Source: Bdellovibrio sp. (GTDB lineage Bacteria > Myxococcota > SpSt-1050). From it: 64,000 nt of DNA. The stretch lies in NCBI GenBank assembly GCA_020725805.1, contig DYEF01000074.1, positions 1 to 64,000 on the forward strand, in the 5' to 3' direction. Each line of letters begins with the position of its first letter. Position 1 is the stretch's first letter. Both the position numbers and the translations under genes were made by a program. Under the pieces are notes generated by a model, which had not been told where the DNA came from, made no database searches, and saw nothing but the letters and a program-made list of their open reading frames with translations. Positions 50,685-63,711 of this stretch are shown one piece after another.

Positions 50685-51923
50685 ATGCTTGATATTAATA
50701 ACAGAGAAACTGTTATAAAAAAGGCTTTTGGGGGTAGAGTGGAACTTTTTCCAAGTGTTAATGAATTATTTGAATTAGAATTAGCTTATCTTGAGTTTAA
50801 AAGTTTATCAGACGAACAACTTTTAGAAAGAACAGCTTATATAAAGTCAGTTGACAATAAATTCTCAAAGCATTACTTATTATATTCAAATAATTCGAAA
50901 AAAATTCATGCTGACAGGTCATCAACGACACAGGCATATTTTGAAGAAGGACAATTTTCTACAGGATACGCCACTCATGGATTATTCCCTTATCGTGGAA
51001 AATTTCATCCACAATTAATAAAAGGTTTAATAAATATTTTAAACATTCAAAAAGGTGAAACTATTTTAGATCCAATGGCTGGCAGCGGTACAACAAACAT
51101 TGAAGCAGCTTTAATGGGAATTAATTCCAAGGCGATAGATGTTAATCCTTTTTGTCAATTCATGATTAAAACAAAATATGAAGCACTAACTATTGACCTG
51201 AAATTATTAGAACAAACAAAAATTGAAAACAAAAAATTGTTTGATTTTTTCAAGCAAGGTGATGTATTGAAGAGAATAAATAAGATTGGTGATGATAATA
51301 AAATCAAAATATACAATCTTGCATTTTTAGCATTTTTAGACGCTTTGGGTTATTCAAAAAGAGTTGTAAAATCAAATCACGAACAATTATTTGGCAAGGT
51401 TTTACCAAGATATATTGATACTGTAAAATCATTTTTATCTAATCAATATTTTGACCAGAAAAAAATTGGCAATTTGGAAGTTTTATCAGATTCCAATGCT
51501 TTAAACATCAAACTCGAAAGTAATTCCGTTGACTGCGTAATAACCTCTCCGCCATATTCGTTTGCAATTGATTATGTTGAAAATGATAAAGAGCAATTAG
51601 AATTTTTAGGTTATGATACCTATGAATTAAAGAAAAAAATGATCGGTTTAAAAGGGGAAACAAAATTTGAAAAACTTGAAAAATATTTTGCTGACATGGA
51701 TACTTTTTGCTCGCAAGTCTCAAAAGTTATAAAAAGGAAAAAATTTTTTGTTTTGATAATTGGTTCAAATACAAATCAAACCGGAGGAATAAGATTGGAA
51801 GAAAAAGTGATAGATTCAGCCAAAAAACATGATATGACTTTAGTAAAAAGCATATTGAAACCCATTAAGGGAATGAGAAATACAATGAAAGAAGAATATA
51901 TTTTAATTTTTCAAAAGCAATAA
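50685..51923 (+). CDS. DNA methyltransferase (N4/N6 amino-MTase)
   Basis: LFPYRGKFHPQLIKGLINIL, motif I LDPMAGSGTTNIEAALMG, motif IV TSPPYSFAIDYVEND. Confidence 0.9.
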   Translation: MLDINNRETVIKKAFGGRVELFPSVNELFELELAYLEFKSLSDEQLLERTAYIKSVDNKFSKHYLLYSNNSKKIHADRSSTTQAYFEEGQFSTGYATHGLFPYRGKFHPQLIKGLINILNIQKGETILDPMAGSGTTNIEAALMGINSKAIDVNPFCQFMIKTKYEALTIDLKLLEQTKIENKKLFDFFKQGDVLKRINKIGDDNKIKIYNLAFLAFLDALGYSKRVVKSNHEQLFGKVLPRYIDTVKSFLSNQYFDQKKIGNLEVLSDSNALNIKLESNSVDCVITSPPYSFAIDYVENDKEQLEFLGYDTYELKKKMIGLKGETKFEKLEKYFADMDTFCSQVSKVIKRKKFFVLIIGSNTNQTGGIRLEEKVIDSAKKHDMTLVKSILKPIKGMRNTMKEEYILIFQKQ

Positions 51924-51934
51924 TTTTAAATTAC

Positions 51935-52909
51935 ATGACAAGAAGCATTGAAGATAAATTTCAAACAGTAATTCAAAAGAACACATTTTATTTTTTCAAC
52001 TCTAAGTTTGAAGATAATTATGAAGGTTATATCAATTCACTAAAAGAAACCCTTTTAATAGTAAAAAACAAGGTTGAAACAGAAGGTCTAAAAAAAGAAA
52101 TTTTTGAATGGCTTTTGTCAGAGAAAGAAAACGGTTTAAAAGCACTATTAGCATTAACTGGGTTTTCCAATGAATATTTAAAACGACTTACAACAATAAT
52201 TCGCATAGTTGATAATCCTGAACTCAATAAACTTGTTTATAAAGAAAAATGGTATAATGAGAAAAATCCTAATAATATTCAGGAATGGTCTGATGAAATA
52301 ATTTTAAAACACATCAGAAAAAATGAATATTTTAGAAAAGGTATAATTAATATTTTCTTTGAAGGTGCATCCATACCTTTTTTAGCTAATACGATCCCAC
52401 TTTTTGAATTAAAAAAACTTAGCATTTCAAAACTAAAATTTGAAATTCCTGAGTTAATTGATACTCTTATTCGTTATAAGGAAAAAGGTAGTTATTCTGG
52501 AAAGAAAGAGAATAATCCAGAAACTGTTATTACCGAAATATTGGAAAAATTAAGTATTTCGTTTGAAACTGGAGATTTAAGTGAACTTATTGCTAATGCC
52601 CCAGACAGCAAGCGGACAATGGACTTTATTATTCCTAATAAGAAAAATCCATTAATAATAATTGAAAGTTCTTTTTTGGTTACCACATCTTCAGGACAGG
52701 GGGATAAATCTAAAACTGAGATTTCTGTTGATAATTTAATTAAAGAACACTATCCCAAAGCAAGTTTTATTGGCTTTGTAGATGGTATAGGTTGGTATGT
52801 TAGAAAAGGTGATCTAAAAAGAATGGTAACGGCTTATGAAGATGTGTTTACTTATCACAAAGATGAATTAAAAAGATTTGAAAAATTCTTAAAAGATAAA
52901 CTATTATGA
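51935..52909 (+). CDS. Type II restriction endonuclease, DpnII/MboI-like
   Basis: LLALTGFSNEYLKRLTTIIRI; PD-(D/E)XK-like PDSKRTMDFIIPNKKNPLIIIESSF; FIGFVDGIGWYVRKGDLKRMVTAYEDVFTYHKDEL resembles the DpnII C-terminal WITDGxGW region. Confidence 0.75.
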   Translation: MTRSIEDKFQTVIQKNTFYFFNSKFEDNYEGYINSLKETLLIVKNKVETEGLKKEIFEWLLSEKENGLKALLALTGFSNEYLKRLTTIIRIVDNPELNKLVYKEKWYNEKNPNNIQEWSDEIILKHIRKNEYFRKGIINIFFEGASIPFLANTIPLFELKKLSISKLKFEIPELIDTLIRYKEKGSYSGKKENNPETVITEILEKLSISFETGDLSELIANAPDSKRTMDFIIPNKKNPLIIIESSFLVTTSSGQGDKSKTEISVDNLIKEHYPKASFIGFVDGIGWYVRKGDLKRMVTAYEDVFTYHKDELKRFEKFLKDKLL

Positions 52910-54564
52910 GTGAAATTAAATATGAATTTATTGGCATTGGGACACTTATTAAAAACAAAAATCTTAAAGTGCCGACACATCAAAGACCATATTCCTGGCA
53001 AACTGAGCATATTGAAGATTTATTGTATGACATAAAGAATAATTTTAATGAGGATGAGTATTTTCTAGGAACAATAGTATTGACTGCTGGAGATAACAAT
53101 AAAAATGAAATTGTTGATGGACAACAAAGAATAACTTCTGTTTCGTTAATATACGCTTCAATTCGTGATCTATTGCAAAATAAAACAGATTCTGATGAAA
53201 TACACACTAAATATCTAAGCACCTATGATATTCGAACTAAAGAATATTTCCCCAAGTTAGAATTAAGCCAACAGGATAATGAGTTTTATAGAAATTTAAT
53301 AATTAATAAACAGAACAATGCTGAGGCAAGAAGGTTATCTAATACTTATTTAAAAGATGCTTATCATACAATTTTTAATTTTATTACGAGAGTATTAAAA
53401 AATCATAATAATGATGAAAATGTATTAATTGACTGGAAAGATTTTTTAGATGAAAAATTAAAAGTTGTGGTTATAACTGTACCTACAGATGTGAATGCTT
53501 TTACAATTTTTGAAACATTGAACGATAGAGGATTGGCACTAGCACAAACCGATTTAATAAAAAATTATTTATACGGAAAAGCGGATAATAGAATAGATGA
53601 AGTTCAAAGAGCTTGGATAGAACTTGTTTCAAAGATAGAAACAGAAGATGAATCATTATTATTAACTTATATTAAACATTATTGGTTTGTTAATTATTCA
53701 TTTGTTCGTGAAAGCAAAAATGAACTATACAAAGAAATTAAAAATAAAATAAATAACTCTACTCAAGTAACCACTTTTGTAAATAACTTAAAGAATGACA
53801 TTGATATATATTTAGCAATTCTCAATCCTAACTCTTCTTTCTGGAACAACTTTGATAATCTGTGTAAAAACTATATTGAAACTCTTAATTATTTCAGCTT
53901 AGAGCAATACAGACCTCTAGTATTTTCAATTCTTAAAAAATTTCAACCTATTGAGGTAAAGAAATCGTTAAAACTTATCGTTTCTTGGCTTGTTAGAAAC
54001 TTAATTGTTGGAGGTTTAGGAGGAGGTACATTAGAAAAAGCATACGCTGAAAAAGCACATGCAATTATTTCTGAAAATATTAAAAATGCATCTGAGCTAA
54101 GAAATTCCTTAAGCTCCATAATTCCACAAGATGAAACATTTAAAGAACAATTTAGCATAGCAAGTGTTAGTAAAGCAAAATACGCAAGATATTACCTTGC
54201 TGCCATTGAAAATTATAAAAGAGGCAAAGAACATCCAGAACTCATAGTAAACTTAAATCCTGACTCTGTAAATCTTGAACACATTCTACCTGAAAACCCT
54301 GAAAATAATTACCCCAACTTTACAGAGGAACAACATACTGTCTATTATAAGAGGATAGGGAATCTTACTTTGATGAAAACAAAAGAAAACAATGACTTCA
54401 AAAGTTCTAAGTTTTCAGATAAAAAGAAAAAATATACAGAATCTGAATTATGGATAACTAATTCTTTAAGAGAATATGATGATTGGACAATTGAAACAAT
54501 AAATGAAAGACAATCAATTTTAGCTGAATTAGCTTTAAATACATGGTCATTAAGATTTGAATGA
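52906..54564 (+). CDS. DUF262-DUF1524 (GmrSD-like) nuclease
   Basis: N-terminal VPTHQRPYSWQTEHIEDLLYDI, VDGQQRITSVSLI; C-terminal HNH-type NLEHILPENPENN...RIGNLTLMKTKENN. ATGA overlap with REase. Confidence 0.9.
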   Translation: MSEIKYEFIGIGTLIKNKNLKVPTHQRPYSWQTEHIEDLLYDIKNNFNEDEYFLGTIVLTAGDNNKNEIVDGQQRITSVSLIYASIRDLLQNKTDSDEIHTKYLSTYDIRTKEYFPKLELSQQDNEFYRNLIINKQNNAEARRLSNTYLKDAYHTIFNFITRVLKNHNNDENVLIDWKDFLDEKLKVVVITVPTDVNAFTIFETLNDRGLALAQTDLIKNYLYGKADNRIDEVQRAWIELVSKIETEDESLLLTYIKHYWFVNYSFVRESKNELYKEIKNKINNSTQVTTFVNNLKNDIDIYLAILNPNSSFWNNFDNLCKNYIETLNYFSLEQYRPLVFSILKKFQPIEVKKSLKLIVSWLVRNLIVGGLGGGTLEKAYAEKAHAIISENIKNASELRNSLSSIIPQDETFKEQFSIASVSKAKYARYYLAAIENYKRGKEHPELIVNLNPDSVNLEHILPENPENNYPNFTEEQHTVYYKRIGNLTLMKTKENNDFKSSKFSDKKKKYTESELWITNSLREYDDWTIETINERQSILAELALNTWSLRFE

Positions 54565-55663
54565 TATGATTGAAAAATATATTAACCAAATTCATCATGG
54601 AGATTGTCTAGAATTATTCAAGAATATTCCAGACAATTCGGTAGATGTTACTTTTGCTGATCCACCCTTTAATTTAAAAAAGAATTACTCAAGTTATTCG
54701 GATAGTTTAGAATTTCAAGAATACCTGGATTGGTGTGAAAAATGGATCAGTGAAATGGTAAGGGTTACCAAACCAACAGGATCTATATTCGTTCATAACA
54801 TTCCTAAATGGCTAACATATTATGCTGCATTTTTGAATAAACACGCTTATTTTAAACATTGGATCGCTTGGGATGCGCCCACCGCACCGATGGGAAAATC
54901 TTTGCAACCGGCACATTATGGCATCCTATTTTACACTAAAAAAGAAAAAGGAGCAAAAATTTATGAGTTAAGGCATCCGCATAAGCGCGATAGGAAATTA
55001 GGTTATTTACTAAAAGATTATGGCGGTAAAAAAGATGGATTACATCCTTTTGGACCTTTAGTTTCAGATGTTTGGACGGATATTCACAGGATAAAACACA
55101 ATACAAAAAGAGATCCACATCCATGTCAATTGCCTATTCATTTATTAGATAGAATTATATTAATGACTACTGATGAAGGTGATATTGTTTTAGACCCTTT
55201 TGCTGGAACCGGAACAACAGCAATCTCTGCAAAACGCCTTGGAAGAAAATTTATTGGATTTGAATTAGATAAAAAATATGTAGAAATATCTCGACAAAAA
55301 CTTGAAAGAACGCTACCTAACTTTAAATTAGGTGAAAGCTGGGTAAGCTTTTATTTGAATGATATTGTTACGATTAGAAATAATGACTGGCATAATCTTG
55401 CAAAATACTTTTCTATACCGAATCCATTACGGAATATTGATTTTGAACGAGTAAAATTAATTGACAAGAAATTAATTCCCAAAGAACCCGATATTGAAAA
55501 AGATGACTTTGAAAAAGAAAGCAAAATAGCAGAAAAGCCATCGAAAATAAATGAGAAAAAAATTATCGAGATTGAAAGCCCAATGCTAAGTCAGCCACAT
55601 TTGCAGGTCGCTCAGAATAGCCTAAAACCAAATCCTACTAAAAACCTGCCTTTTAAAATTTAA
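54557..55663 (+). CDS. Site-specific DNA methyltransferase (N6-adenine type) with C-terminal extension
   Basis: Motif IV FADPPFNLKKNYSSYSD precedes motif I LDPFAGTGTTAISAKRLGRKFIGFELDKKY; overlaps the DUF262 gene end by 8 nt. Confidence 0.92.
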   Translation: MNDMIEKYINQIHHGDCLELFKNIPDNSVDVTFADPPFNLKKNYSSYSDSLEFQEYLDWCEKWISEMVRVTKPTGSIFVHNIPKWLTYYAAFLNKHAYFKHWIAWDAPTAPMGKSLQPAHYGILFYTKKEKGAKIYELRHPHKRDRKLGYLLKDYGGKKDGLHPFGPLVSDVWTDIHRIKHNTKRDPHPCQLPIHLLDRIILMTTDEGDIVLDPFAGTGTTAISAKRLGRKFIGFELDKKYVEISRQKLERTLPNFKLGESWVSFYLNDIVTIRNNDWHNLAKYFSIPNPLRNIDFERVKLIDKKLIPKEPDIEKDDFEKESKIAEKPSKINEKKIIEIESPMLSQPHLQVAQNSLKPNPTKNLPFKI

Positions 55664-56013: not shown

Positions 56014-57540
56014 TTATTCTATAAAATTGCAGCTGCAGGAGGAAGAAGAATCAGAAAGATGTGTATCTGCAATAGTGTCCAGTTTTGATATGTCTTCAAA
56101 AAACAGATTGTCCTCAATAACTGGTATGTCATTTGCTGACAGCCCATCTTCGGCAGAGGTATCGGATTTTGCCGGGATGTCTGAGAAAATAGTTGTATCA
56201 ACGTTTTCTGATGATTCATCTTCGGATAAAATATCTTCCTCTCTCATATCTTTTTCAACTCCGGCATCAATGCTCTCGTATTTTGCTATTATTTCCAGAT
56301 ACGGTCTTTTACTAATATCGGAGTATTCTTTTGAGTAAAATGCAGAACCATCGTCCGAAAGGGATATGATATTAAATGAATTTATTTCACCCTGCGAGAT
56401 AATAGACGTAACATCCCAGAAAACCATATCATTTACAGAAAAATATCCTTGATTTGATATAATATTTGTGTTTGGCACAGGCATATTATTGTATGTAAGA
56501 CTCTCCTCTTCCCAGTCATTATCAATCTGCCGGGATATGCCTCCCACATAACCCGAATTTGTCACATATGCCGACACTTTTGCTGAAATTATTTTATATC
56601 CCTTAAAATTATTTAGGTCAAACTTAAGAAAAATCACCCTTCCGTATGAACCACTTCCATCGCCGCCCACCTGAAAATTATCAAGACTGCCCTTTATAGA
56701 ATCAGGTTCTCCTTTTGATGTGAATGTGTCATCAATCGGGAGAATTCTCATTGTTATTATATGTCCAGTATCTTCTAATTGAGCGATATCATTACCAATA
56801 CCAGCATCTGTTGGATTACAAGGATTATTGATAAGTTTGGAATCTTCATTTACATATATCTTTATATTTTTATAGATAGTCCCGGGTTGTTCGCCGTAAT
56901 TTGGCTTTGTAGTCCTGTCTCTTCCAATAAGGATATAGCGGTAATAGGGTGGATAGATGTGAGTATATTCGTAGATTATATTGTTGTCCTTTATGACTTT
57001 AATATTTCCATTCAATTTCCATTCAACAATATACCTGTAGGTTGTGGTATAATCCCATTGATAGTTTGTCTCCACCCTTGCCTCATAATCTATCTCTGCA
57101 CCAGGCTCGCAGATAGGTCTTGTGAGGACCTTGTATTCACAGGGATCAAAATATCCGGTCCCGGTTCTTATAATAAAATAGGATTCTCCGGCAAGATGCA
57201 CCGAATCTCTCTCCTGTTTTTCTGTCTGATACATAGTTATTATATGACATTTCTCAGCATTTGGCTGCTGGCAGGGAAGGAAATTTTTTAGTTCTATCTC
57301 TAATCTTCCCTCACCATAAGCGACTCCAAGGTCATAGCTTATTCTTGAATCAGGACCAGAGGTTGCTACCCAGCCGTCCATTGTAAGCTCTCCGCCCTCC
57401 ATAATACCTTTTGTAGTACCTGAAAGCGGGTCATCGACCTTCAATACCTCTTCTGCAAAAATTAAAAGAGGTATAAAATTAAAAATAAAAATGTATTTTT
57501 TCATAGTCAAAAGTATATCATCTGGCAAATGCTGTGTCAA
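56014..57540 (-). CDS. Secreted protein: N-terminal beta-sandwich-like module, DNRLRE/CBM96-like domain, Asp-rich tail ending CSC
   Basis: Signal peptide (likely MKKYIFIFNFIPLLIFA); GRVIFLKFDLNNFKGYKIISAKVSAYV...DWEEESLTYNNMPVP...RPYLEI; C-terminus DTHLSDSSSSCSCNFIE. Signal peptide implies start near 57504. Confidence 0.75.
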   Translation of the reverse strand: MTQHLPDDILLTMKKYIFIFNFIPLLIFAEEVLKVDDPLSGTTKGIMEGGELTMDGWVATSGPDSRISYDLGVAYGEGRLEIELKNFLPCQQPNAEKCHIITMYQTEKQERDSVHLAGESYFIIRTGTGYFDPCEYKVLTRPICEPGAEIDYEARVETNYQWDYTTTYRYIVEWKLNGNIKVIKDNNIIYEYTHIYPPYYRYILIGRDRTTKPNYGEQPGTIYKNIKIYVNEDSKLINNPCNPTDAGIGNDIAQLEDTGHIITMRILPIDDTFTSKGEPDSIKGSLDNFQVGGDGSGSYGRVIFLKFDLNNFKGYKIISAKVSAYVTNSGYVGGISRQIDNDWEEESLTYNNMPVPNTNIISNQGYFSVNDMVFWDVTSIISQGEINSFNIISLSDDGSAFYSKEYSDISKRPYLEIIAKYESIDAGVEKDMREEDILSEDESSENVDTTIFSDIPAKSDTSAEDGLSANDIPVIEDNLFFEDISKLDTIADTHLSDSSSSCSCNFIE

Positions 57541-57611
57541 AACCTAGTTCAAACTTGACGAAAAGATATTAAAGCTGTAGTATAAGCTTAGTCCCGGACG
57601 AGGTTTGTAAA

Positions 57612-58880
57612 ATGACAAACAGAAGATTTTTTTTATTCGTTAGTTTTTTAATGCTGATATCTTTAAGCTTGTATTCCTATGACCTATCTTTGTCTCTGAG
57701 TGACAGGAATGAACTTGATAGTTTGAACGCAATAATAAAAGGGGGAGAAATTACATCCGAGGGTTTCAGGGTAACTTCCCAGAATACAGGGTTGATTATT
57801 CCATTGCCTCAGGGAATCAATCCATCTCAGGGATATTTAAAAATAAAAATGACAAAATTTCCACAGAGCTGGCCGCATGAACCGGATATATGTCCAGATC
57901 CGGGAGTAGGGAGCCCTTGGGCAAAGACTGTATTCGGGATGGGGATATCTCCGGATAATTTATGGGAAGGTGAAGGAGGTCCTGGTTTTATTGAATCTCA
58001 TTATTTGAGGTGTGAGAATCCTTGTGACAGTGGATATCAGGGGGCATTCAGGCATAAGTTTAAAGGTGCTGGTGCTCAGGATACCTGCTGGGCTACAACT
58101 GTAATGTCTTATTACTTCTGTAATGACTCTGGACATATACTTGAAATAGAACACAGATGGGATATAAGCGGTCACTACTGGGTTCTTGAAGATGGTATTG
58201 AGAAGACGGCAAGAGGGGAATCGTGTGGAGTACTTGACAAGAATTTCAGATGGTATATTCATATTGCACATGGAAATGATAACGAATTCGCTACCAATGG
58301 AGATATAACAGGTGCGGTCTTTTTTGACCTTGTAGTTCATTTTGACGACGTGAATTCATTCTGCGGAGATGGGATTTGTAATGCAAATGAGAATTGTTCA
58401 GATTGTCCTCAGGACTGCGGCTGTAAATCGCCCTGTTATATTTGTAAACAAAACAAGTGTGAATGTAATTCCCCTAATTATGAATGTCCATCCTGTATAC
58501 CTTCCTGCAGTCAGAATGCTATTTTGAATCAGACAAGTACTTTATGCTGCGGTAAAAATAGCATTTGTGCCACAGGGAAGAGAGAGTTTGAGTCATATGA
58601 TTGTAATTTATGCTGTGAAGGGTTTGACTGCATAGTAGAGAATCTGAATGATGCAGGTGAAGGAGATACACCTGCAGAAGATATGGTAGAGAAAAATGAT
58701 CTGGATGAAAACAGTGATATAAATGGATTTGAAGATATATATAATGGGACGGAAGAAAGCATAGACCATGGTTCAGCAGTAGAGCTTACGTCAACTGATG
58801 TAGATGTTTTAAGATTTGATATATCATCTGGTTCTGAGAGCAGGGAGAATTCTGGCTGTAGTTGTGAATATTTGAAATGA
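57612..58880 (+). CDS. Secreted Cys-rich paralog with Asp-rich tail ending CSC
   Basis: Signal peptide; IIKGGEITSEGFRVTSQNTGLIIPL parallels IMEGGELTMDGWVATSGPDSRISYDL in 56014-57540; C-terminus ISSGSESRENSGCSCEYLK. Confidence 0.75.
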   Translation: MTNRRFFLFVSFLMLISLSLYSYDLSLSLSDRNELDSLNAIIKGGEITSEGFRVTSQNTGLIIPLPQGINPSQGYLKIKMTKFPQSWPHEPDICPDPGVGSPWAKTVFGMGISPDNLWEGEGGPGFIESHYLRCENPCDSGYQGAFRHKFKGAGAQDTCWATTVMSYYFCNDSGHILEIEHRWDISGHYWVLEDGIEKTARGESCGVLDKNFRWYIHIAHGNDNEFATNGDITGAVFFDLVVHFDDVNSFCGDGICNANENCSDCPQDCGCKSPCYICKQNKCECNSPNYECPSCIPSCSQNAILNQTSTLCCGKNSICATGKREFESYDCNLCCEGFDCIVENLNDAGEGDTPAEDMVEKNDLDENSDINGFEDIYNGTEESIDHGSAVELTSTDVDVLRFDISSGSESRENSGCSCEYLK

Positions 58881-59072: not shown

Positions 59073-62000
59073 ATGAATAAAGAATACAGCAACATATTCC
59101 GCAGCGAACTGAAAGATTTCGACAGAGATATCTTTCTTCTCTCTAAGGTTGAAGAGGAGAGACAGCTTCAGAAGATAGTCCTCATACCCTCCGAATCGAT
59201 TACGCCTTATCCGGTAAGGGAGGCACTCTCCACCGCCTTTGTAAGTATATATACGGAAGGTTATCCGCCGATAAGAATGACAAGGGAGGAAGAGAAGAAG
59301 GTCACCGATTATTACTATCAGATGGCAAGATACAGAAGGTATGCAGACAGGAGATTCTACAAAGGCTGTGATATTGCAAATCTCGTCGAGGTAATCGCCC
59401 AGAGGAGGGCAGCCAGATTATTTGCCACACCGAATCTTCCGGAAGATAAAATATACGTAAATGTCCAGCCGTTATCCGGTGCAGCGGGGAATAATGCAAT
59501 ATATGAGGCATTCGTTCAGCCCGGTGATGTGGTTATGGGTATGGCACTCTCTGAAGGCGGACACCTGACTCACGGCTCACCGTTCAACAGGTCGGGCAAG
59601 AGATATACGATAGTTTCGTATTCCGCCGACCCGAAGACCGAACTTCTGGACTACGACAGGATTATGCAGCAGGCAAAGGAGTCGAAGCCGAAGATGATAA
59701 TTGCAGGCTGGACCTCATACCCGTGGGCACCCGACTGGAAGAGATTCAGGGAGATAGCCGATGAGGTCGGGGCAAAACTTGTTGCAGATGTCTCACACCC
59801 TGCAGGACTCATTGTGGGAGGTGTCTATCCGAACCCGATTGAATACTGCGACGCTGTTATGTGCACGACACACAAGACACTCTGCGGGCCAAGAGGCGCG
59901 ATAATTCTTACAAAGGACGAGACGATTGCTGCAAGGATAGACAATTCCGTCTTTCCGGGTGAACAGGGCGGTCCTCACGTAAACAAGATGGCTGCAATGG
60001 CAATTGCATTTAAGATTGCCGATTCAGACCTCTTCAGGGAGATGATGAAACAGGTCGTGAAAAATGCATCAGCAATGGCAGACCAGTTTATAAAACGCGG
60101 GCTCAAACTCGCAAATAACGGGACAAACACACATATGCTCCTCATCGACCTGAACAAACTTCCGAATTCAAAGCCTCTTCCCGTCAAAGGCGAGATCGCC
60201 GCGAGGATTCTGGAACTCTGCGGGATTGTCCTGAATAAGAATACAATTGCCGGAGATCCAACAGCGGCACATGCCAGTGCCCTCAGAATAGGGACACCGT
60301 GGATTACGCAGCGTGGATACAGGGAAAAGGAGGTCAGAGAGCTTGCAGATATAATTACAGATATAATTCTGGACATAAAGCCGTTCTTCTATCAGGGTCT
60401 GACAGGACAGCTGCCGAGAGGGAAAGTCGAACACTCAACTATTATAAAAGGGAAAGAGCGGGTGCTCGGTCTAAATCAGTCAGTTGTGCTCAAATCCGAT
60501 GAGAAAATCGGTTATCCGTTTATGCCGTTTACACCTGTCAGAACCGAAAAGTCTGAGTATAAATACTCAGCAGAGACGGAAGTATTTCTGGAAATGAACA
60601 GATACGGCCTGTTCGAGATATCCGGTGAACGTCCGGGACACTTTTTGCATCAGGTTCTGACCGCCGATGTAATCAATATGAAGGCCGGAGAATCACTCGC
60701 ATCTCCGCTCTTTAATGCCGATGGAAAGCTTCTGGACTTTGTAAATATCTTCTGCGTATCCGATAAAAACGAAGATAAATTCATTATGGTCTGCAATCCC
60801 CACAGAAAAGATATGCTGCTCGAATACCTCCGGAATATATCAGACGGATATGTCGTATTCGACAGGGAAGATGTAACAAAGAAGATAGAGGGACCGGCAA
60901 ATATAATAGACCTTCAGGACGACCTCCTTCTCGAAAAGAAATTCAAGGGCCTTCTGTTTTCTCCAAAGGGACTGAAAAATGCCGAAAAGGTTCTGTCGAT
61001 GAATATCGGGGAAAAGGGCGGGTCATTCAAAGAGAATATTTATCTTTTTAACGTCACCGCTCTCAACGGAAACAGATATATAGCAGCGGTTATGACGGAA
61101 GATGTTTTCAAAAACACAAACTCCATGATAAAGGAAAGTGGCCTTGCTGAGACTGATCCAAACTCAATCTTACTTGTTGGCAAAGATGATGAACTGCTTA
61201 CCATAAAGGATTTTTATAAAAAATATCCCCAGTATTTCAAATCAGAAAAGGTATATTTTGCAGGCGAGCCGGTCATAAGGGAGGTTTTTGCCGCCAATTC
61301 AAAAAGTGTATCAAGGGAGAAATTCGTATTTGAGGAAAAGGAAGGCGAACTCAAGCGGACAGTCCTCTTTGACTGGCATAAGAAGAATGCACAAAAGGTA
61401 ATTCCGTTCGCAGGATGGGAGATGCCGGTATGGTACACAAGTATCCTCGATGAACACAATGTTGTAAGAAATGCAGCAGGGCTCTTCGATGTATCTCATA
61501 TGGGAGTTCTGGAGGTCAGAGGGAAGAACGTAGAGTCTTTTCTGAACATTCTGACTGCAAATTATGCCTCGTGGATACTGCCGGGACAATCCCAGTACAG
61601 CTATCTCTTCGACACAGAGGGAAATGTAATAGATGACATTATGCTTTACAGAAAATCCCGTGACTCATATATGATAGTTGTCAATGCAAGCAATGCGGAT
61701 AAAGACCTTGCGTGGATGAATTATGTAAATTCCGGAAAGGCGATTCTGTGCAGTAAGAGATCATATATCAACATCGACACACCGGTTGAAATCAGGAATC
61801 TAAAGGACAAAAGCAGTGGTAGTGAGATGAGAGTAGATATCTCCCTGCAGGGAAGAATGGCACTTCCGACCTTGCTCGATATTGCCGGCGCCCCCGACAG
61901 GAAGCAGAGAATCAGATCACTCAGGCGAACCGACTTTCTGGAGATAGAGATAGAGAAGGAGTCAGTAATCCTGTCGAGGACCGGATATACAGGCGAAGAG

Positions 62001-62582
62001 ATTGCATTTGAGCTTTATATACACCCTGATAAGGTTCTGAAAATCTGGGAACTTCTTCTTGATGCCGGCAAAAAATACGGGGTCAAACCCTGCGGACTCG
62101 GTGCAAGAGATTCACTCAGGACAGAGGCAGGACTGCCGCTCTATGGACACGAACTCGCAGGTCCGTACAATATCTCTCCTGCCGGCGCCGGATTCTCTCC
62201 GTATGTGAAACTCCACAAGCCGTTCTTCATCGGAAGGGATGCTTTCATCGAGTCAGAGAAGAAGAGGACAATGGAGATAATCAGGTTCATTATGACCAAC
62301 AAGATATCCCGGCCGGCAAAACAGAAGGATGTAGTAGTCAATGCACAGGGAGTTGCAATCGGTTATGTTACGTCCTCGGCGTTCAACGGAGAGGGGTATC
62401 AGGTCGGTCTTGCTTATGTTGACAGAAGACATATAAAGGAAGGTGCTAGAATCGGAATATATTGCTCACCATCTTCAAAGGCAAATGTAAATGTCGGAGA
62501 AGAGGTAAAAGTCGGGGACAGACTCGTTCTGCCTGAGCCCGCGACAATTCTCCCCAGATTCGAGAGGAAGAAGAAGAAGTAA
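59073..62582 (+). CDS. Fusion protein: serine hydroxymethyltransferase, degenerate GcvT-like module, aminomethyltransferase (GcvT)
   Basis: SHMT: VNVQPLSGAAGNNAIYEAF, EGGHLTHGSPFN, TTHKTLCGPRGAI, FPGEQGGPHVNKMAA; middle YGLFEISGERPGHFLHQVLTADVINMKAGESLASPLFNADGKLLDF; C-terminal PFAGWEMPVWYTSILDEHNVVRNAAGLFDVSHMG, LSRTGYTGEEIAFELY. One uninterrupted ORF. Confidence 0.93.
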   Translation: MNKEYSNIFRSELKDFDRDIFLLSKVEEERQLQKIVLIPSESITPYPVREALSTAFVSIYTEGYPPIRMTREEEKKVTDYYYQMARYRRYADRRFYKGCDIANLVEVIAQRRAARLFATPNLPEDKIYVNVQPLSGAAGNNAIYEAFVQPGDVVMGMALSEGGHLTHGSPFNRSGKRYTIVSYSADPKTELLDYDRIMQQAKESKPKMIIAGWTSYPWAPDWKRFREIADEVGAKLVADVSHPAGLIVGGVYPNPIEYCDAVMCTTHKTLCGPRGAIILTKDETIAARIDNSVFPGEQGGPHVNKMAAMAIAFKIADSDLFREMMKQVVKNASAMADQFIKRGLKLANNGTNTHMLLIDLNKLPNSKPLPVKGEIAARILELCGIVLNKNTIAGDPTAAHASALRIGTPWITQRGYREKEVRELADIITDIILDIKPFFYQGLTGQLPRGKVEHSTIIKGKERVLGLNQSVVLKSDEKIGYPFMPFTPVRTEKSEYKYSAETEVFLEMNRYGLFEISGERPGHFLHQVLTADVINMKAGESLASPLFNADGKLLDFVNIFCVSDKNEDKFIMVCNPHRKDMLLEYLRNISDGYVVFDREDVTKKIEGPANIIDLQDDLLLEKKFKGLLFSPKGLKNAEKVLSMNIGEKGGSFKENIYLFNVTALNGNRYIAAVMTEDVFKNTNSMIKESGLAETDPNSILLVGKDDELLTIKDFYKKYPQYFKSEKVYFAGEPVIREVFAANSKSVSREKFVFEEKEGELKRTVLFDWHKKNAQKVIPFAGWEMPVWYTSILDEHNVVRNAAGLFDVSHMGVLEVRGKNVESFLNILTANYASWILPGQSQYSYLFDTEGNVIDDIMLYRKSRDSYMIVVNASNADKDLAWMNYVNSGKAILCSKRSYINIDTPVEIRNLKDKSSGSEMRVDISLQGRMALPTLLDIAGAPDRKQRIRSLRRTDFLEIEIEKESVILSRTGYTGEEIAFELYIHPDKVLKIWELLLDAGKKYGVKPCGLGARDSLRTEAGLPLYGHELAGPYNISPAGAGFSPYVKLHKPFFIGRDAFIESEKKRTMEIIRFIMTNKISRPAKQKDVVVNAQGVAIGYVTSSAFNGEGYQVGLAYVDRRHIKEGARIGIYCSPSSKANVNVGEEVKVGDRLVLPEPATILPRFERKKKK

Positions 62583-62709: not shown

Positions 62710-63711
62710 TTATCTTGATTTTTTGAAAAGAACTAATTCTTCCGAATATTTCTTACTTCTCTTTATATCCTCTCTCTTCTGATAACTCAGTGTATTTCTC
62801 TCCCAGAATACGCCGTCTGAATATCCCTGTATTCTTTTATCGTTTTCAGCAAGTTCAAGCCTTTTCTCCGCAAGACAGCAATAATCAGTGTTTATCTCGA
62901 TCCCGCAGTAATTACGACCCAGCTTCTTTGCTACAACCGAAGTTGTCCCTGAGCCCAGAAACGGGTCAAAGACAAGTCCCCCCGCAGGAGAGCTTGCAAG
63001 AATGAGCTTTGCTATAAGTTTTTCGGGTTTTTGTGTCGGGTGGTCTGTGTTTTCGGGCATCGACCAGTAAGGGACTGTTATATCATCCCAGAAGTTCGAA
63101 GGATATGTAAGACGAAAATTCCCCTCTCCGGTCTCTATCCAGTCCTTTGGTTTGCCGTCTTCCCTGTAAGGTGCGATTACCCTTCTCTTCATCTTAACTG
63201 ACTCAACATCAAAGTAGTAATCATCAGATACTGTTGCAAACCAGATATCCTCGGTGCAGTTCTTCCAGTTCTTCTTTGCCCCTCTCCCCTTCTCTCTCTG
63301 CCAGTTAATTCTGTTTCTGACTATGAGATATTCTGAAACAACCTGATAAATGGCGGCAGTACACCTCCAGTCGCCGCAGATATAAAGACTGCCATTTGAT
63401 TTTAATAATCTCACTACCTTTGGAAACCAGCTCCTCAGATAACTGATATATGTATCGTTGTCGGATTTGCTGAATCTGTAACCTCCGAAATTCTTGTCCA
63501 GATTGTATGGCGGGTCGATTATCATCAGGTCAACTGATTTTTCAGGGAAGAGGTCTATTACTTCAAAGAGGTCGTTATTGAAGGTTTTGTTAATAATCTC
63601 TTTTAAACTCATCTTTCCGGTCGCAAATGCAAGGCGACTCTTGTAGAGTTCCTTCTCACTATCACTAAGAGTTATTGTCCTGTTTCTCGGAGCTCTCTCT
63701 TTTTCCGGCAT
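62710..63711 (-). CDS. Orphan adenine-specific DNA methyltransferase
   Basis: Motif IV IIDPPYNLDKNFGGYRF, DHPTQKPEKLIAKLI, motif I VFDPFLGSGTTSVVAKKLGRNYCGIEIN. Confidence 0.92.
   Translation of the reverse strand: MPEKERAPRNRTITLSDSEKELYKSRLAFATGKMSLKEIINKTFNNDLFEVIDLFPEKSVDLMIIDPPYNLDKNFGGYRFSKSDNDTYISYLRSWFPKVVRLLKSNGSLYICGDWRCTAAIYQVVSEYLIVRNRINWQREKGRGAKKNWKNCTEDIWFATVSDDYYFDVESVKMKRRVIAPYREDGKPKDWIETGEGNFRLTYPSNFWDDITVPYWSMPENTDHPTQKPEKLIAKLILASSPAGGLVFDPFLGSGTTSVVAKKLGRNYCGIEINTDYCCLAEKRLELAENDKRIQGYSDGVFWERNTLSYQKREDIKRSKKYSEELVLFKKSR

Follow-up and report, generated by a model that had tools for sequence, protein, structure and literature searches.

Glycine cleavage and SHMT are two main sources of methylene-THF, and the reductive glycine route is built around them. 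In the stretch of DNA analysed here (64,000 nucleotides, termed the window below), a single open frame carries both an SHMT and a GcvT, the T-protein. What does such a protein do, and do its parts work together? The sequence makes it quite probable that the fusion is a bifunctional SHMT/T-protein. Coupling of both reactions on one chain is a separate proposition, for which the balance stands at about even.

Architecture of the fusion protein

Pfam and NCBIfam matches place three parts in the 1169-aa frame, in the order SHMT, degenerate GcvT (termed T′) and complete GcvT:

59073..62582, + strand: SHMT-T′-GcvT fusion, 1169 aa (ATG-started open frame, Pfam/NCBIfam, full-length relatives)
59100..60374, + strand: SHMT domain, residues ~10–434, with the family insertion inside (PF00464, NF000586, Foldseek)
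60381..60425, + strand: family-conserved linker PFFYQGLTGQLPRGK, with R449 and K451 invariant (family alignments)
60570..61307, + strand: T′, degenerate GcvT-like module, residues ~500–745 (PF01571, T-domain profile, fold match)
61347..62462, + strand: complete GcvT domain, residues ~759–1130 (PF01571, NF001567, TIGR00528)

An earlier note on this DNA had claimed a complete SHMT, a degenerate GcvT-like middle and a complete GcvT in one open frame, and the Pfam and NCBIfam matches and the fold agree with that claim. The NCBIfam models, for SHMT and GcvT alike, score above their curated cut-offs on the fusion protein. The predicted model of the full-length chain has a pLDDT of 87.5 and a pTM of 0.86.

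The SHMT domain and its insertion

PF00464 matches the fusion over residues 90–428 plus an N-terminal piece (E 3e-113; 378.8 bits against a cut-off of 27), and NF000586 scores 410.9 bits against a cut-off of 335. Foldseek aligns the full fusion model with SHMT structures at E 2e-40. Two features within the domain are central to its function and its distinctness:

59874..59876, + strand: SHMT PLP lysine K268 (E. coli K229), in TTHKT, invariant in 73/73 members
59268..59351, + strand: SHMT insertion, 28 residues between EGYP and RFYKG (78/78 measurable members, conservation)

All 73 full-length members keep K229, E57, Y55, Y65, H126, D200, H203 and R363, in E. coli numbers that follow a GlyA sequence in agreement with the close Salmonella chain. 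The folate contacts of SHMT comprise Leu, Leu, Tyr and Phe sites and a hydrogen bond of Asn347/Asn341 (PMC4257618). Each of the corresponding THF-contact residues, L121, L127, F257 and N347 in E. coli numbering, is unchanged across 73/73 full-length fusions, and an aromatic residue is present at the position of E. coli Y64.

The insertion after EGYP, to which the earlier note had drawn attention, is real and constant. The spacing from EGYP to R[FY]YKG is 28 residues in the fusion compared to 2 in E. coli GlyA, or 26 extra, and it is identical in all 78 measurable members, with 3 others falling outside the search pattern. The insertion adjoins the catalytic Glu and the folate-contacting Tyr, and its R88, R89 and Y90 are invariant. 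It is accompanied by further family-specific changes beside the folate site, namely N37S, G61D, G66K and R371Q. At this location the insertion could take part in an interface or help to hold the folate tail; a role as spacer may be possible too.

The C-terminal GcvT domain

PF01571 (GCV_T) matches the C-terminal part over residues 765–1033 (E 2e-78) and passes its cut-off. NF001567 scores 316.5 bits (cut-off 300) and TIGR00528 276.5 bits (cut-off 235.9), while the C-terminal barrel domain PF08669 reaches 19.9 bits against a cut-off of 25.9. The catalytic residue is located here:

61635..61637, + strand: GcvT catalytic Asp D855 (E. coli Asp97), the second D of IDD, invariant in 73/73 members

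The position of this residue was set by the D97N chain 3a8k, which reads IDN there; the E. coli GcvT sequence used for numbering agrees with the PDB alignment. The DD motif, H51, GYTGE..E and R..D..R are invariant or nearly so across the 73 full-length members.

The T′ module as a probable decayed duplicate

When the middle of the protein is searched alone, PF01571 gives a weak GCV_T match at residues ~506–593 (E 6e-8). A profile built from the T domains of the fusions matches T′ in 74/74 members tested, at 12 to 227 bits. The structure prediction suggested for this module in the earlier note places it in the same fold: T′ alone is modelled at a pLDDT of 83.7, and Foldseek matches it to GcvT/YgfZ structures (best E 3.7e-12, query TM 0.5). 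The catalytic Asp itself has been replaced:

60738..60740, + strand: T′ position of the catalytic Asp, here Phe (LLDF vs IDD; alignment)

Most other catalytic and folate key positions are also gone from T′ in the window. T′ is the fastest-changing part of the protein, at 20–30% identity and with lengths of 195–365 aa, and it contains the invariant positions Y593, D597, D600, G607 and P608. No family member examined lacks T′ or the SHMT insertion. As judged from these sequences, T′ is a decayed GcvT duplicate that would no longer be catalytic. Decay is uneven across the family, with several members retaining the DD motif (L066, L021, L037). These may represent earlier stages of decay.

T′ scores higher against the T domain of the fusion than against canonical GcvT (171 vs 97 bits in L037). 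An unrooted tree places T, T′ and canonical GcvT in a clade each (97/95, 100/100 and 100/99). These clades and the closeness of T′ to the fusion T suggest that T was duplicated once in tandem and that the inner copy then decayed. Since the three clades are separate, they also point to a single origin of the fusion family and an old duplication of T.

Spread of the family

The earlier note had supposed that similar fusions might already exist in databases, and full-length relatives do occur in dozens of independent assemblies. Of 287 related stretches in a contig scan, the best 80 were retained as the family set. Most of these best 80 align with the query over nearly its whole length, and a few are truncated where the contig stops. 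Their hosts are Chloroflexota (mainly Anaerolineae), Bipolaricaulota/Acetothermia, Myxococcota/Deltaproteobacteria, Planctomycetota, Spirochaetes, Neomarinimicrobiota and others, and they include a cultured isolate, Bellilinea caldifistulae GOMI-1 (L079). The nearest relative among the best 80 (L003, 79%) comes from a metagenome-assembled genome (MAG) titled Deltaproteobacteria that is labelled Myxococcota in the tree, where the window groups with L003 and L035 at 99–100. This relative aside, the SHMT and T parts show roughly 45–65% identity to the window. Phyla are partly mixed in the fusion tree, to which MAG binning errors or paralogues may contribute. Eight Anaerolineae genomes (G090, G112, G126, G129, G130, G158, G182 and G191) have two fusion-sized GCV_T frames each, which are possible paralogous fusions.

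Replacement of gcvT and possible replacement of glyA

The fusion usually stands in for a separate gcvT, often as the sole serine-glycine enzyme; these traits, like its membership of a family that spans phyla, had escaped the earlier note. The 112 Anaerolineae genomes with listed matches (down to about 215 bits) were sorted by score thresholds and the length of the frame. A fusion-sized frame occurs in 56 of them, a canonical-scoring gcvT in 55 and both in 4; “fusion” here means a fusion-sized GCV_T frame, with SHMT checked for part of the long frames. This distribution has a Fisher p of 7e-21, uncorrected for kinship. A second SHMT is absent above the cut-off from 36 of 52 fusion genomes, strong in 11 and weak and divergent in 5. 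Many of the genomes are drafts, with completeness not given for most Anaerolineae, and some absences may be assembly gaps.

Clustering of the fusion with gcv genes is common, not general. In 15 loci the fusion has one or more of gcvH, gcvPA and gcvPB close by, and several of these show the order fusion-gcvH-gcvPA-gcvPB on one strand, with the fusion at the position of gcvT in a single operon. A gcv neighbour is present in 9 of the 45 loci whose flanks extend for 2 kb or more in each direction.

The 64-kb window itself has no gcv genes beside the fusion. Directly upstream, at 56014–58880, are two divergent secreted-looking proteins, one with CBM96, which have no visible link to the fusion. Farther upstream (50685–55663), DNA methylases, a DpnII/BanI-like nuclease and a GmrSD-type protein resemble a restriction-modification or defence island, and an N6/N4 methylase lies just downstream of the fusion at 62710–63711 on the − strand.

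One-carbon genes in this genome

The genome is 3.29 Mb in size and 97.9% complete. The fusion is its sole carrier of GCV_T domains, and a GCV_T domain search found no separate gcvT. The genome check proposed in the earlier note turned out well for gcvH, gcvPA and formate-THF ligase, all of which are present, and failed for gcvPB. The gcvH and gcvPA genes are adjacent on another contig (G000:C94:41745-43456; L087:5746-7457), and gcvPB was found neither beside them nor elsewhere in this assembly. It is present in 21/21 other genomes checked (16 fusion-bearing and 5 with standalone gcvT), including the same-genus genome G001. In the same-genus genome, gcvPB is located next to panB, on a contig apart from gcvPA. 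A search of this assembly, run without a positive control, did not find panB. Because this same-genus neighbour is missing too, the missing gcvPB is likely an assembly gap. The idea that the SHMT domain substitutes for GcvPB was dropped on the same grounds, given that 21/21 other genomes have the gene and that panB is gone here as well.

A standalone GlyA-like protein is encoded between rpiB- and secA-like genes (G000:C83:20693-21898; L088:5694-6899). It scores above the SHMT family cut-off and carries L121P, L127S, Y64H, F257Y, K346A and N347L, all in common with its same-genus orthologue. It probably works as a PLP enzyme in some other role. Since it has lost these folate-pocket residues, the fusion is probably the sole folate-dependent SHMT in this genome. 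The earlier note had held that separate functional glyA and gcvT, alongside a fusion devoid of catalytic residues, would speak against its reading; instead, gcvT is absent, the folate residues of glyA are lost and the catalytic residues of the fusion are kept.

Proposed function and alternative explanations

Both activities are ascribed to the fusion because of residue conservation, the replacement of gcvT and the gene context. In the proposed scheme, lipoyl-GcvH would be loaded by GcvPA/GcvPB, and the aminomethyl group would then be passed to the C-terminal GcvT, which would make methylene-THF and ammonia. The N-terminal SHMT would use or regenerate methylene-THF during glycine-serine interconversion, and T′, placed between the two active domains, may provide a scaffold or an interface for them. 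With GcvH, GcvP and GcvL as partners, the fusion could convert two glycine into serine, CO2 and NH3, or the reverse, on one chain. Channelling of methylene-THF within the fusion is plausible. A stronger version, in which folate is passed across an interface made of T′ and the SHMT insertion, with direct hand-over of methylene-THF in a single-chain glycine-to-serine converter that replaces gcvT and often glyA across phyla, is rather unlikely.

The chance that the protein is an assembly chimera or an annotation artefact is vanishingly small. Family members do come mostly from metagenome-assembled genomes, but the part order and the insertion length are constant across dozens of independent assemblies and one isolate genome, and a chimera or frameshift was rejected on account of this end-to-end recurrence. 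It is also quite improbable that GcvT alone is physiologically active while the SHMT domain carries out another aldol reaction, such as threonine/allo-threonine cleavage, with the true SHMT elsewhere. The family-specific SHMT changes and the 26-residue insertion beside the folate site would fit such a shift in chemistry, as would the standalone SHMT-family protein in this genome and in 16/52 fusion genomes. However, the fusion retains every THF-contact residue, whereas the genome's own standalone protein has lost them, and 36/52 fusion genomes are without any other SHMT. S99A, once regarded as a sign of altered SHMT chemistry, was dropped as ordinary because the chain of B. stearothermophilus SHMT also has SGA there.

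The remaining explanation accepts the bifunctional reading and departs from coupling. The fusion may be one of convenience, in which two independent active enzymes are co-expressed without kinetic coupling and T′ is a mere spacer. This has a serious claim, if one a little short of even, and the decayed state and rapid change of T′ are what would be expected of a spacer. Against it, T′ and the insertion persist in all members examined, T′ has invariant positions, and the three-part chain is modelled with high pTM. The bifunctional SHMT/T-protein is compatible with either outcome.

Significance and comparison with known systems

A natural fusion that is often the sole copy of both enzymes ties the two reactions together in stoichiometry. 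It offers a ready-made part for synthetic C1 assimilation and a clean test case for folate channelling. It also means that single-domain naming can hide the fusion, as both NCBIfam models pass and a pipeline would pick one. No paper describing an SHMT-GcvT fusion was found in the open-licence literature, though one may exist elsewhere, and the earlier note's concern that the architecture might already be well characterised found nothing there to bear it out. Both parts are textbook enzymes. The apparent novelty lies in the fact that they are joined, in the decayed copy between them, in how widely the fusion occurs and in its taking the place of separate genes.

The N-terminal part resembles GlyA/SHMT (PF00464, NF000586) in its fold, PLP lysine and THF-contact residues, and differs in the addition of two GcvT-type modules and of 26 residues between EGYP and RFYKG. 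The C-terminal part shares with GcvT/T-protein (PF01571, TIGR00528) the catalytic Asp, the GYTGE and ARD motifs and, in relatives, the gcvH/gcvP neighbours, while unlike canonical GcvT it belongs to a larger protein and forms its own clade. T′ resembles YgfZ/IBA57 in structure, as a GcvT fold without the T-protein residues, but its sequence is nearer to the T domain of the fusion itself than to canonical GcvT, and it lies inside an enzyme fusion. Dimethylglycine oxidase/dehydrogenase and the sarcosine oxidase alpha subunit are enzymes in which a one-carbon-producing enzyme is fused to a GcvT-like folate domain, so that methylene-THF is formed on-chain. They have the GcvT domain in common with the fusion described here, but their partner is a flavin oxidase and they have no T′, whereas the partner in the fusion is a PLP-dependent SHMT.
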